NCBI GenBank assembly: GCA_018240985.1
Contig: JAFEER010000241.1
Location: 1 to 47,499, forward strand
DNA length: 47,499 bases
Direction of reading: 5' to 3'
From: Pseudomonadota bacterium
Lineage (GTDB): Bacteria > Pseudomonadota > Gammaproteobacteria > Burkholderiales > Burkholderiaceae_C
Both the position numbers and the translations under genes were made by a program. Under the pieces are notes generated by a model. That model had not been told where the DNA came from and ran no database searches. It saw nothing but the letters and a program-made list of their open reading frames with translations. This document shows, one piece after another, positions 35,966-38,793 of this stretch (its first letter is position 1; the number at the start of each line of letters is the position of its first letter).

Positions 35966-37426
35966 ATGATCTCCCGCGAACCCACCATTGAACGCCTGGC
36001 GCTGGCGCGCGAGCTGCTGCTCACGCCCTTCGGCCTGGATGAGTCCCATCTCTCCCGCGCGCTGGCGCAAATCCGCGCGCACCGCGTCGATGACGCCGAC
36101 CTGTACTTCCAGTACACGCGCAGCGAGGGCTGGAGCCTGGAGGAGGGCATCGTCAAGACGGGCTCTTTCAGCATCGACCAGGGCGTGGGCGTGCGCGCCG
36201 TGAGCGGCGAGAAGACCGCCTTTGCCTATTCCGACGACATCTCCGAGGCCTCGCTGCTCGATGCCGCCCGCACCGTGCGGTCAATTTCGGCTGCAGCCGG
36301 CTCTGGACGTGCGCGAGTAGCAAGCAAAAAGATAGCTAAGAGCCGCTCCCTCTACCCCCATATCGACCCCATCGCCACGCTGGACAGCACGGCCAAGGTG
36401 CAGCTGCTGGAGCGCGCCGAGCAGCGCGCCCGCGCCAAGGATCCGCGCGTGGTGCAGGTCATGGCGGGCCTGGCGAGCGAGTACGACGTGGTGCTGGTGG
36501 CGCGCGCCGACGGCACGCTCGCGGCCGACGTGCGCCCGCTGGTGCGCCTGTCCATCACCGTGATCGCCGAGCAGGGCGGGCGGCGCGAGGTGGGCTCGGC
36601 CGGCGGCGGCGGGCGCTTCGGCCTGCCCTACTTCAGCGACGAGCAGATCGGCAAATATGTGGATGAGGCCGTGAACGCCGCCCTGGTGAACCTGGAATCG
36701 CGCCCGGCGCCGGCCGGCGAGATGACCGTGGTGCTCGGCCCCGGCTGGCCCGGCGTGCTGCTTCACGAGGCCGTGGGGCATGGGCTGGAGGGTGATTTCA
36801 ACCGCAAGGGCTCTTCGGCGTTCAGCGGCCGCATCGGCCAGCGCGTGGCCGCCAAGGGCGTGACGGTGCTGGACGACGGCACCATCGCCGACCGGCGCGG
36901 CTCGCTGAACGTGGACGACGAGGGCCATGCCACGCAGAAGAACGTGCTGATCGAGGACGGCATCCTGAAGGGCTACATCCAGGACTCCATGAACGCCCGC
37001 CTGATGGGTGCCAAGCCCACCGGCAACGGCCGGCGCGAGAGCTATGCCCACATCCCCATGCCGCGCATGACCAACACCTACATGCTGGCCGGCGACAAGG
37101 ATCCGAAGGAAATCGTCGCCAGCATCAAGAAGGGCCTGTATGCCACCAACTTCGGCGGCGGCCAGGTGGACATCACCAGCGGCAAGTTCGTGTTCTCGGC
37201 CAGCGAGGCCTACTGGGTGGAGAACGGCAAGATCCTCTACCCCGTGAAGGGCGCCACGATCGTCGGCAGCGGCCCCGAGTCACTTAAAAAAGTGAGCATG
37301 ATCGGCAACGACCTGGCGCTGGACAGCGGCGTCGGCACCTGCGGCAAGGAGGGCCAGAGCGTGCCCGTGGGCGTCGGCCAGCCGACCATGCGCATCGATG
37401 GCATCACGGTGGGCGGCACGGCCTGA
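35966..37426 (+). CDS. tldD: Metalloprotease TldD
   Basis: Subunit of the TldD-TldE protease, which trims peptides such as microcin B17 and modified RiPP precursors. The 486-residue protein has the zinc site HEAVGHGLEGDF (residues 267-278) and the conserved stretches AYSDDISEASLLDAAR, GSLNVDDEGH, GYIQDSMNARLMG and YATNFGGGQVDITSGKFVFS. Residues about 108-128 (ISAAAGSGRARVASKKIAKS) are a variable linker whose DNA partly resembles the short repeat (AGCAAGCAAAAAGATAGCT). tldE is not in the window. No obvious terminator follows; the aroG leader begins 73 bp downstream. Confidence 0.95.
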   Translation: MISREPTIERLALARELLLTPFGLDESHLSRALAQIRAHRVDDADLYFQYTRSEGWSLEEGIVKTGSFSIDQGVGVRAVSGEKTAFAYSDDISEASLLDAARTVRSISAAAGSGRARVASKKIAKSRSLYPHIDPIATLDSTAKVQLLERAEQRARAKDPRVVQVMAGLASEYDVVLVARADGTLAADVRPLVRLSITVIAEQGGRREVGSAGGGGRFGLPYFSDEQIGKYVDEAVNAALVNLESRPAPAGEMTVVLGPGWPGVLLHEAVGHGLEGDFNRKGSSAFSGRIGQRVAAKGVTVLDDGTIADRRGSLNVDDEGHATQKNVLIEDGILKGYIQDSMNARLMGAKPTGNGRRESYAHIPMPRMTNTYMLAGDKDPKEIVASIKKGLYATNFGGGQVDITSGKFVFSASEAYWVENGKILYPVKGATIVGSGPESLKKVSMIGNDLALDSGVGTCGKEGQSVPVGVGQPTMRIDGITVGGTA

Positions 37427-37461
37427 CGCGGAATTTGTCGCGCCTTGACCACAAAAAGGTT

Positions 37462-37491
37462 TTGCTGCAGTGCCGCAAATCGTGCTACATT
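37462..37491 (+). promoter_or_regulatory. Possible promoter of the aroG leader
   Basis: TTGCTG (37462-37467), an 18-bp spacer and TACATT (37486-37491) form a reasonable sigma-70 promoter. The expected transcription start, about 37498, would place the leader ATG at or next to the 5' end, making the leader peptide mRNA leaderless. An alternative -35-like TTGACC at 37445 has no -10 at the right spacing. Confidence 0.4.
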
Positions 37492-37498
37492 GAAGCGC

Positions 37499-37555
37499 AT
37501 GTCGATTCGTAGCGCGTCTTATTTTTACTTTTGGTTCTCTGTCCATGGCGGATGA
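37499..37555 (+). CDS. aroG leader peptide, aromatic-rich (18 residues)
   Basis: The short frame encodes MSIRSASYFYFWFSVHGG and ends in TGA. Residues 8-13 are six consecutive aromatics, Tyr-Phe-Tyr-Phe-Trp-Phe. It lies 120 bp before aroG, which makes the first committed step of aromatic amino acid synthesis, and is followed 42 bp later by a strong terminator. This is the arrangement of pheL- and trpL-type attenuators, where ribosome stalling at codons for the end product prevents termination. The random occurrence of six aromatic codons exactly here is very unlikely. Only a weak GAAG precedes the ATG, consistent with the possible leaderless start. Confidence 0.85.
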   Translation: MSIRSASYFYFWFSVHGG

Positions 37556-37596
37556 GAGAGGTAGACGCGCACCCTGACTGAGCCCCTTCTCCCAAG

Positions 37597-37636
37597 AACC
37601 GCCGAAGCTGCAAAGCCCGGCGGTTTTTTTGTTTTT
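37597..37636 (+). terminator. Attenuator terminator upstream of aroG
   Basis: AACCGCCG (37597-37604) pairs with CGGCGGTT (37618-37625), with an inner GCT/AGC pair, followed by seven T, G and five T. It lies between the leader peptide and aroG and would stop transcription before the gene. A competing pair is possible between GGCGG at the end of the leader ORF (37547-37551) and CCGCC of the 5' arm (37599-37603), a candidate antiterminator. Confidence 0.85.
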
Positions 37637-37674
37637 GAACCTGTCCTGACACATCAACCCGCGAGGATCACCCC

Positions 37675-38793
37675 ATGACCGCAGCCGCCCCCAGCCACGA
37701 AGCCTGGTATCCCAACGTCGAGAAAACCAGCCAGACCGACGACCAACGTATCGAGGAAATTACCGTGCTTCCCCCTCCCGAACACCTGATCCGCTTCTTC
37801 CCCATCCGCGGAACCGAGGTCGAGTCGCTGATCGGCAACACGCGCCGCAGCATCCAGCGCATCATGAATGGCGAGGACGATCGCCTGCTGGTCATCCTCG
37901 GCCCCTGCTCCATCCACAACCCCCAGGCGGCGCTGGAATACGCGCAAAAGCTGAAAGTGGTGCGCGAGCAGTACAAGGATCAGCTCGAAGTAGTGATGCG
38001 CGTGTACTTTGAGAAGCCGCGCACCACCGTGGGCTGGAAGGGCCTGATCAACGACCCCTACCTGGACGGCAGCTACCGCATCGACGAGGGCCTGCGCATC
38101 GCGCGCCAGCTGCTCATCGACATCAACCGCCTGGGCGTACCCGCGGGCAGCGAGTTCCTGGACGTGATCTCGCCGCAGTACATCGGCGACCTGATCAGCT
38201 GGGGCGCCATCGGTGCGCGCACCACCGAGAGCCAGGTGCACCGCGAGCTGGCCTCAGGCATCTCGGCGCCGATCGGCTTCAAGAACGGCACCGACGGCAA
38301 CATCCGCATCGCCACCGACGCCATCCAGTCCGCCAGCCGCGGCCACCACTTCCTGTCGGTGCACAAGAACGGCCAGGTGGCGATAGTGCGCACCGTTGGC
38401 AACAAGGACTGCCACGTCATCCTGCGCGGCGGCAAGGCGCCCAACTACGACGCGGCCAGCGTCGCCGCGGCCTGCAAGGACCTGACGGCCGCCGGCCTGC
38501 CGGCCACGCTGATGGTGGACTGCAGCCACGCCAACAGCAACAAGCAGCACGAGCGCCAGCGCGACGTGGCGCGCGACATCGCGGCGCAGATCGCCGGCGG
38601 CTCGCGCAGCGTGTTCGGGGTGATGATCGAAGGCCACCTGCAGGCCGGGGCGCAGAAGTTCACGCCTGGCAAGGACGATCCCGCGAAGCTGGAATACGGC
38701 AAGAGCATCACCGATGCCTGCCTGGGCTGGGACGATTCCGTCGCCTGCCTGGCCGAGCTGGCCGCTGCCGTGCAGGCCCGCCGGTCGGTGTAA
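37675..38793 (+). CDS. aroG: 3-deoxy-7-phosphoheptulonate (DAHP) synthase, class I
   Basis: Condenses PEP and erythrose 4-phosphate to DAHP. The 372-residue protein is of the AroF/G/H type: LLVILGPCSIHNPQAALEYA (metal Cys), VVMRVYFEKPRTTVGWKGL, SEFLDVISPQYIGDLISWGAIGARTTESQ (in parts), IGFKNGTDGN, LRGGKAPNYD and LMVDCSHANSNKQHERQ, ending with VFGVMIEGHL. GAGG lies 10 bases before ATG at 37675. Expression should be controlled by the upstream leader and attenuator. Which aromatic amino acid also inhibits the enzyme cannot be read off. Confidence 0.97.
   Translation: MTAAAPSHEAWYPNVEKTSQTDDQRIEEITVLPPPEHLIRFFPIRGTEVESLIGNTRRSIQRIMNGEDDRLLVILGPCSIHNPQAALEYAQKLKVVREQYKDQLEVVMRVYFEKPRTTVGWKGLINDPYLDGSYRIDEGLRIARQLLIDINRLGVPAGSEFLDVISPQYIGDLISWGAIGARTTESQVHRELASGISAPIGFKNGTDGNIRIATDAIQSASRGHHFLSVHKNGQVAIVRTVGNKDCHVILRGGKAPNYDAASVAAACKDLTAAGLPATLMVDCSHANSNKQHERQRDVARDIAAQIAGGSRSVFGVMIEGHLQAGAQKFTPGKDDPAKLEYGKSITDACLGWDDSVACLAELAAAVQARRSV

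Follow-up and report, generated by a model that had tools for sequence, protein, structure and literature searches.

A putative ribosome-mediated attenuator with aromatic leader codons upstream of the DAHP synthase gene aroG in Burkholderiales

The aroG leader region and its relatives

The window analyzed in this study is a stretch of 47,499 nucleotides from a bacterium of the order Burkholderiales (contig JAFEER010000241.1), and all features described below lie on its forward strand. The proposed regulated gene, aroG (37675..38793), was assigned by profile match. As the preliminary description had stated, its product is a DAHP synthase; this enzyme catalyses the opening step of aromatic amino acid synthesis and is here of the AroFGH type (TIGR00034, 527.8 bits with a cut-off of 173.2), and it scored 535.3 with the narrower AroG model NF006723, just below the cut-off of 568. 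The gene is preceded by a Shine-Dalgarno (SD)-like GAGGA at 37663..37667, and its upstream neighbour is tldD (35966..37426, profile match), which is not part of the proposed switch. Between the two genes, a predicted extended -10 promoter element, TGCTACATT (37483..37491), contains a TANNNT box (37486-37491) that ends 7 nt before the start codon of a short leader ORF. This ORF, MSIRSASYFYFWFSVHGG, has 18 codons (ATG at 37499 to TGA at 37555), and six of them in a row, at 37520..37537, encode Tyr-Phe-Tyr-Phe-Trp-Phe (YFYFWF). An intrinsic terminator was found further downstream by folding and by a terminator scan (37597..37630); its hairpin, AACCGCC...GGCGGTT (37597-37625, -16.5 kcal/mol), runs into a T-run at 37624-37630, and a second T-run follows at 37632-37636. 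Comparison and folding point to two further segments, the predicted sides of an antiterminator. Segment 2, the 5' side (37547..37561), consists of GGCGG (37547-37551) and AUGAGAGAGG, and segment 3, the 3' side (37583..37603), consists of CCCCUUCUCC...CCGCC, with CCGCC at 37599-37603; segment 3 doubles as the 5' arm of the terminator. The ORF with its six aromatic codons, GGCGG, CCGCC, the hairpin and the T-run all lie where the preliminary description had placed them.

The six frames of the window contain a single run of at least five aromatic codons, that of the leader, and no run of six was found in 100 block-shuffled windows. The fold of the leader RNA taken alone has a z score of -1.82 (7 of 200 shuffles were equally good), and the terminator scan returned one site compared with 0.6 in shuffles. 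The RNA evidence from the window alone is thus moderate, and the case rests on conservation in relatives. With these, the combination of leader and terminator is confirmed as real and beyond chance.

To cover near relatives, the best 80 of 595 aroG loci in a collection of named genomes were taken, a choice that favours such relatives. One locus with only 10 nt of upstream sequence (L041) was set aside, and 450 nt upstream of aroG were assessed in each of the remaining 79. An aromatic leader ORF comparable to that of the window precedes aroG in 70 of these 79 loci, including a weak, Phe-only leader (L048) and two further weak ones (L031 and L043). According to the script, 68 of the 70 leaders start with ATG, and those of L069 and L080 with GTG. 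The nine loci without a leader belong to four Polynucleobacter, two Cupriavidus and the records L074, L078 and L079. An alignment of the aroG upstream regions of relatives, the comparison by which the preliminary description was to be checked, showed conservation of the aromatic codons, of GGCGG and of the terminator.

To build a covariance model, R1, 70 sequences were aligned (with the window, without L075), and the model was searched against 300 genomes of the order. It produced 87 matches in 86 genomes, of which 80, in 80 genomes, adjoin aroG as judged by tblastn on the surrounding DNA. The other seven have E values of 9.6e-4 or worse, and the aroG-adjacent matches in G640, G658 and G500 are equally weak. 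Since an AroG match was obtained in 240 of the 300 sampled genomes, one third of the AroG-bearing genomes carry the module, and 160 have no R1 match beside aroG. As a control, 40 aroG upstream regions were taken, one AroG each from 40 of these 160 module-free genomes (one region being 258 nt long), and none of them contained a leader with at least six aromatic residues in eight; two TTG-started ORFs reached five in eight, without the GGCGGTTT signature. The terminator pattern with its T-run is present in 79 of the 80 aroG-adjacent matches, the window counted among them, and the exception (L205) has an interrupted T-run. In a sample of 370 genomes of the class, a second covariance model, R2, gave matches with E values of 0.001 or below in nine genomes. 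Three of these belong to the window's own family and two matches (G067 and G296) are weak. Four genomes from outside the order (G010, G147, G243 and G244) have the same module just upstream of aroG, which suggests either transfer or an older origin.

The exact pattern [FY]F-x-YFWF was also tried on the 300 genomes and matched 13 of them, partly away from the leader (for example, at 575252 in G587, where the leader lies at 567219). It was too narrow and too unspecific, and was replaced by models R1 and R2. Several smaller observations concern individual genomes. In four Polynucleobacter loci (L050, L051, L057 and L058), the upstream gene is separated from aroG by a very short gap that holds neither leader nor terminator, and both are present in two Polynucleobacter-titled MAGs (L034 and L036). 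The AroG proteins of a Solimonas-titled record (L042), a Planctomycetota MAG (L078) and a Verrucomicrobiia MAG (L079) are 79%, 66% and 70% identical to that of the window, respectively, and the Solimonas-titled record also carries the leader; these three records represent either misbinned contigs or transfer. Within the window's own genome, no aromatic leader or terminator was seen by eye upstream of the second DAHP synthase gene (L082, G000:C105:1464-2495), and the stretch scanned at pheA contains no ORF with three or more aromatic residues in eight.

Alternative RNA pairings and a model of the proposed switch

Pairs and codons were counted in 148 sequences, 70 of which come from the named set with the window; the order search contributed the other 78, its 80 sequences less L135 (the window itself) and L205. 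At least one genome seems to be represented twice, by L026 in one set and L140 in the other. The script assigned leaders to all but one of the 148 sequences (147), missing that of L182, where one is present.

Because GGCGG-like and CCGCC-like patterns served to locate segments 2 and 3, their core is constant partly by construction and is silent on covariation. The core is nearly invariant in an untuned alignment too, and because its pairs hardly vary, the covariation term of RNAalifold on alignment A1 is near zero. The outer pair between segments 2 and 3 is more informative. It is C-G in 66 and T-A in 34 of the 148 sequences; its two positions pair in 74% compared with 60% in shuffles, and none of 2000 shuffles, which ignore relatedness, matched this. 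The terminator pair between segments 3 and 4 that uses the same segment 3 base is G-C in 91 and A-T in 47 of the 148. A single base of segment 3 thus varies in step with both of the bases with which it can pair. Support is weaker for the pairs beyond this one, for which 62, 8 and 44 of 2000 shuffles did equally well, and no excess of pairing is seen in the four columns on the inner flank of the core. In a swap test on the inner part, which consists of GAGAGG and the stretch before CCGCC, own arms gave -7.43 kcal/mol and swapped arms -6.61 kcal/mol, with 0 of 5000 trials as good; the reversed control was null, and swap tests of this kind ignore relatedness. As a refinement, the antiterminator is assigned a second part, in which GAGAGG would pair with the C/U-rich stretch before CCGCC.

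On a FastTree phylogeny of the AroG proteins, six independent G/A changes were placed in segment 3. On average, segment 4 follows in 5.0 of these and segment 2 in 4.4, with changes in the opposite sense in 0.0. Read in reverse, the tree holds 12 independent C/T changes in segment 2, of which segment 3 follows 3.0, opposes 0.1 and stays unchanged in 8.8; a C to U change in segment 2 still allows pairing with G. Four control positions (g+5, g-3, g-4 and g-5) change the same way as segment 3 in 0.0 to 0.4 events only. Events on the tree are so few that 0.05 is out of reach of a sign test (median p 0.125). The GGCGG:CCGCC antiterminator put forward in the preliminary description is thus favoured by compensatory changes and by the swap test, and the tree test, which is underpowered, points in the same direction.

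Two further structures were considered. A candidate 1:2 (protector) hairpin, UUCUCUGUCC with GGAUGAGAGA (37535..37560), is seen in folds of the window and by RNAalifold on A1, and its swap test was no better than the reversed control. A predicted outer stem, with its 5' arm GCGCGTCT at 37512..37519 and its 3' arm AGACGCGC at 37563-37570, would enclose the aromatic codons when no ribosome is present; own versus swapped arms gave a z score of -6.2 over 70 sequences, a value obtained without a reversed-sequence control.

The effect of ribosome position was modelled by folding the RNA up to the end of segment 3 in 144 leaders, the edge of the ribosome being placed 14 nt downstream of the A-site codon. 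On average, the 2:3 core had a probability of 0.86 with the ribosome at the first aromatic codon (above 0.5 in 87% of the leaders and below 0.5 in 13%), 0.57 at the last aromatic codon, 0.36 without a ribosome (above 0.5 in 36%) and 0.00 with the ribosome at the stop codon. The fold model hence agrees with the earlier proposal that stalling frees GGCGG and that a ribosome at the stop codon covers it (0.86 versus 0.00). For the window itself, the corresponding probabilities were 0.97-0.999 at aromatic codons 1-5, 0 at codon 6, 1e-6 without a ribosome and 0 at the stop. These no-ribosome folds indicate that segment 2 is hidden in the window but not in about a third of its relatives.

When the ribosome edge was varied from 11 to 17 nt, a Phe codon giving the antiterminator was found in at least 141 of the 144 leaders and such a Tyr codon in at least 127 of 133. 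For Trp, the corresponding counts were 87-92 of 93 at edges up to 15 nt and 61-62 of 93 at 16-17 nt, edges at which the Trp codon of the window fails as well. In the model, sensing of Phe and Tyr is therefore robust, whereas that of Trp hinges on where the ribosome edge is placed. Compared with shuffles, the stalled-state fold has a mean z score of -1.27, and the score is under -1 in only 80 of the 144 leaders. At equilibrium, folding of the window's complete RNA favours the terminator even when the ribosome is stalled. Given this result, antitermination would have to be kinetic and take place during transcription, as the analogy with trp also suggests.

We put the probability that a ribosome-mediated transcription attenuator controls aroG at about 0.9. 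Conservation, selection on residues and the 2:3/3:4 pairing rest here on sequence comparison, and we infer a response of aroG to aromatic supply. Conservation in relatives, the pairing tests and folding have both strengthened and sharpened the original reading of leader and terminator as an attenuator. In the proposed mechanism, transcription would start at or next to the leader AUG, and a ribosome would load on the 5' end of the RNA without an SD site. If Phe-tRNA or Tyr-tRNA (probably also Trp-tRNA) were short, the ribosome would wait in the aromatic codons, the upstream hairpins would stay open and segment 2 (GGCGG...GAGAGG) would be free to pair with segment 3 (CCUUCUC...CCGCC); no terminator would form and aroG would be transcribed. 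If the aromatic tRNAs were charged, the ribosome would run to the stop codon and sit on segment 2, the terminator would form and transcription would end at 37624-37636. With no ribosome on the leader, local hairpins would hide segment 2, in the window if not in every relative, and the terminator would again form.

Leader translation and competing explanations

In 65 of the 70 leaders of the named set with the window, a TANNNT box ends 6-8 nt before the start codon, about one being expected per distance, and TGn precedes TANNNT in 96 of the 147 leaders of both sets together. An SD-like site lies before the leader start in only 2 of 70 cases, which is no enrichment over shuffles (4.2), whereas aroG starts, picked by a simple script, have their own SD in 52 of 67 loci. 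A -10 box at this distance from the ATG, combined with the lack of SD enrichment, suggests that the leader mRNA is probably leaderless. The attenuator could also operate as proposed but with a normal 5' UTR, in which case TGCTACATT would not be the -10 element of the leader promoter. In favour of this reading, only 42 of 77 leaders in the wider order have TANNNT ending 5-9 nt before the start (SD sites were seen in 5, compared with 5.4 in shuffles; the set is slightly biased, as part of the box belongs to the model used to retrieve it); moreover, a consensus promoter scan of the window found no -35 element and no full promoter at the leader. The 6-8 nt spacing and the TGn extension among the nearer leaders, as well as the contrast in SD sites between leaders and aroG, speak against a normal 5' UTR, which we regard as unlikely.

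The leader codons bear on what the attenuator would sense. At least six aromatic residues in eight are found in 122 of the 147 leaders; Phe occurs in all 147, Tyr in 136 and Trp in 93. In the most aromatic eight-residue stretches of 144 leaders, TTT (391), TTC (206), TAC (124), TAT (105) and TGG (97) were counted, together with just two TTA or TTG codons and one CTT codon for Leu. As these stretches were picked for their aromatic residues, what counts as evidence is that synonymous codons are mixed and Leu codons almost lacking, and not the aromatic share. By this comparison, synonymous changes and exchanges among F, Y and W leave the residues aromatic. As for the GGCGG-type motif, 74 of the 147 leaders have it in codon register 2, 65 in register 0 and 8 in register 1, and its occurrence in all three registers argues that it is constrained as RNA and not as peptide. 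Three sequences (L199, L203 and L209, from G551, G634 and G658) have kept segments 2, 3 and 4 with a leader of only 1-3 aromatic residues; sensing may have been lost or changed in them.

A peptide that itself arrests the ribosome, in response to a free aromatic compound or a drug and not to uncharged tRNA, would be another way to use such a leader. TnaC senses free Trp, and a conserved aromatic-rich stretch could contact the exit tunnel. To our knowledge, however, arrest peptides need fixed residues, while in these leaders F, Y and W interchange, their order and number vary among relatives, and the part after the aromatic run is read in different registers, so we consider an arrest peptide very improbable. 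Slightly more doubtful still is control at aroG translation or through an RNA-binding protein, with the leader only shaping the RNA: the three leaders that keep the RNA segments with few aromatic residues would fit, but the terminator and T-run in nearly all aroG-adjacent matches (79/80), the separate SD of aroG (52/67) and the retention of aromatic residues through synonymous changes do not. Least credible of all is a terminator that just ends the upstream tldD transcript, the aromatic ORF being incidental, since a TldD match lies directly upstream in 54 of the 70 loci of the named set with the window but the 16 without one in the upstream DNA (889 to 1520 nt) keep leader and terminator, leader and T-run are both missing from the gap in four Polynucleobacter whose upstream DNA, by eye, resembles a tldD end, the 40 module-free aroG genes lack a comparable leader and the aromatic codons are conserved; the terminator is thus not simply that of tldD.

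Relation to known attenuators and a second leader before trpE

We file the aroG leader under ribosome-mediated attenuators that work like pheL and trpL. It combines a leader ORF with a run of the sensed codons, an intrinsic terminator, an antiterminator that, by the pairing tests, uses the 5' arm of the terminator, and a downstream gene that makes the sensed amino acids; in the folding model it also has the matching geometry of stalled and stopped ribosomes. The enterobacterial pheL-pheA and trpL-trpE systems are alike in having a leader rich in the sensed residue, an antiterminator competing with an intrinsic terminator, and a biosynthetic gene downstream. Unlike them, the aroG leader precedes a DAHP synthase gene, has a mixed Phe/Tyr/Trp run and matched no Rfam leader family; its segment 2 lies at or before the leader stop codon, and its start is probably leaderless. 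The pheST attenuator likewise has a Phe/Tyr-rich leader, pheM, but it controls a tRNA synthetase, and the likeness is one of description. Passages of PMC1262725 and PMC5343134 name attenuation of pheST and, in gammaproteobacteria, of trp and pheA, respectively.

The closest parallel for the leader start comes from Sinorhizobium meliloti (S. meliloti), where, according to a passage of PMC7298713, the 5' end of the trpL transcript starts with the ATG of the leader ORF, giving a leaderless attenuator RNA. Both leaders are linked to attenuation of an aromatic pathway gene, and the aroG leader has its -10 box 6-8 nt ahead of the ATG, with no SD; the S. meliloti system, as far as that passage describes it, differs in concerning Trp, trpE and an alphaproteobacterium, and its leaderless start is reported, whereas that of the aroG leader is predicted. 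Attenuation ahead of DAHP synthase genes has also been proposed elsewhere. The uORFC-13-1 motif, as presented in a section of PMC8632094, is a predicted uORF with a terminator before the DAHP synthase gene aroF and resembles the aroG module in its Phe codon(s), terminator and downstream gene; it is set apart, by its description there, in being limited to Acholeplasma and environmental sequences and in having a U-run with at least one Phe. Table 7 of PMC1173090 gives putative attenuators, taken from Merino's site, before the DAHP synthase-tyrA operons of Vibrio, which represent another operon and another taxon, and for which the table gives no leader peptide.

At 37300-37800, an Rfam search with E values up to 5 gave five matches that fell well short of gathering scores, none of them to a leader family; nor did Pfam and NCBIfam detect one in five leader peptides of relatives, a length of about 20 residues on which HMMER is weak. 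A literature search, which covered few subscription journals and many of its sources in part, found no aroG attenuator described in Betaproteobacteria and no measured response of an aroG leader to amino acid supply; the word aroG is absent from the main text of PMC2965389. Within that coverage, we found no earlier description of the aroG attenuator, nor any description of how flux through the shikimate pathway is controlled by gene regulation without TyrR and TrpR. According to the relevant part of PMC5343134, the genomes it covers from classes other than the gammaproteobacteria lack both regulators, which would leave room for control by RNA. Tentatively, and at somewhat less than even odds, many Betaproteobacteria may use a leaderless pan-aromatic attenuator as their main supply-sensing control of entry into the aromatic pathway, where it would replace the missing TyrR and TrpR and act beside a leaderless-looking Trp leader (RGAWPWR) before trpE. 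With the aroG module, one in three AroG-bearing genomes sampled from the order has a concrete switch that lends itself to testing, and the family model can be used to annotate it. The module could also serve as a sensor of aromatic amino acid shortage, and leaderless-looking leaders could tie SD-free initiation to regulatory output.

The trpE leader was observed in the window's own genome (L223/L266, G000:C55), approximately 275 nt upstream of trpE. It reads MFIHRTVIAGRSDRGAWPWRKPAHLNS, with the core DRGAWPWR, in which WPW supplies two Trp codons, and has relatives in L267-L290. No T-run of five was found between this leader and trpE in the stretches scanned, and the leader region (L223) had no Rfam match. 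Of 25 genomes of the family, all but L288 have the motif [RQ][GE]AW[PL]WR near trpE, and 21 of the 24 leaders carry a TANNNT that ends 5-9 nt ahead of the ATG; the trpE leader is perhaps a leaderless leader of a different kind.
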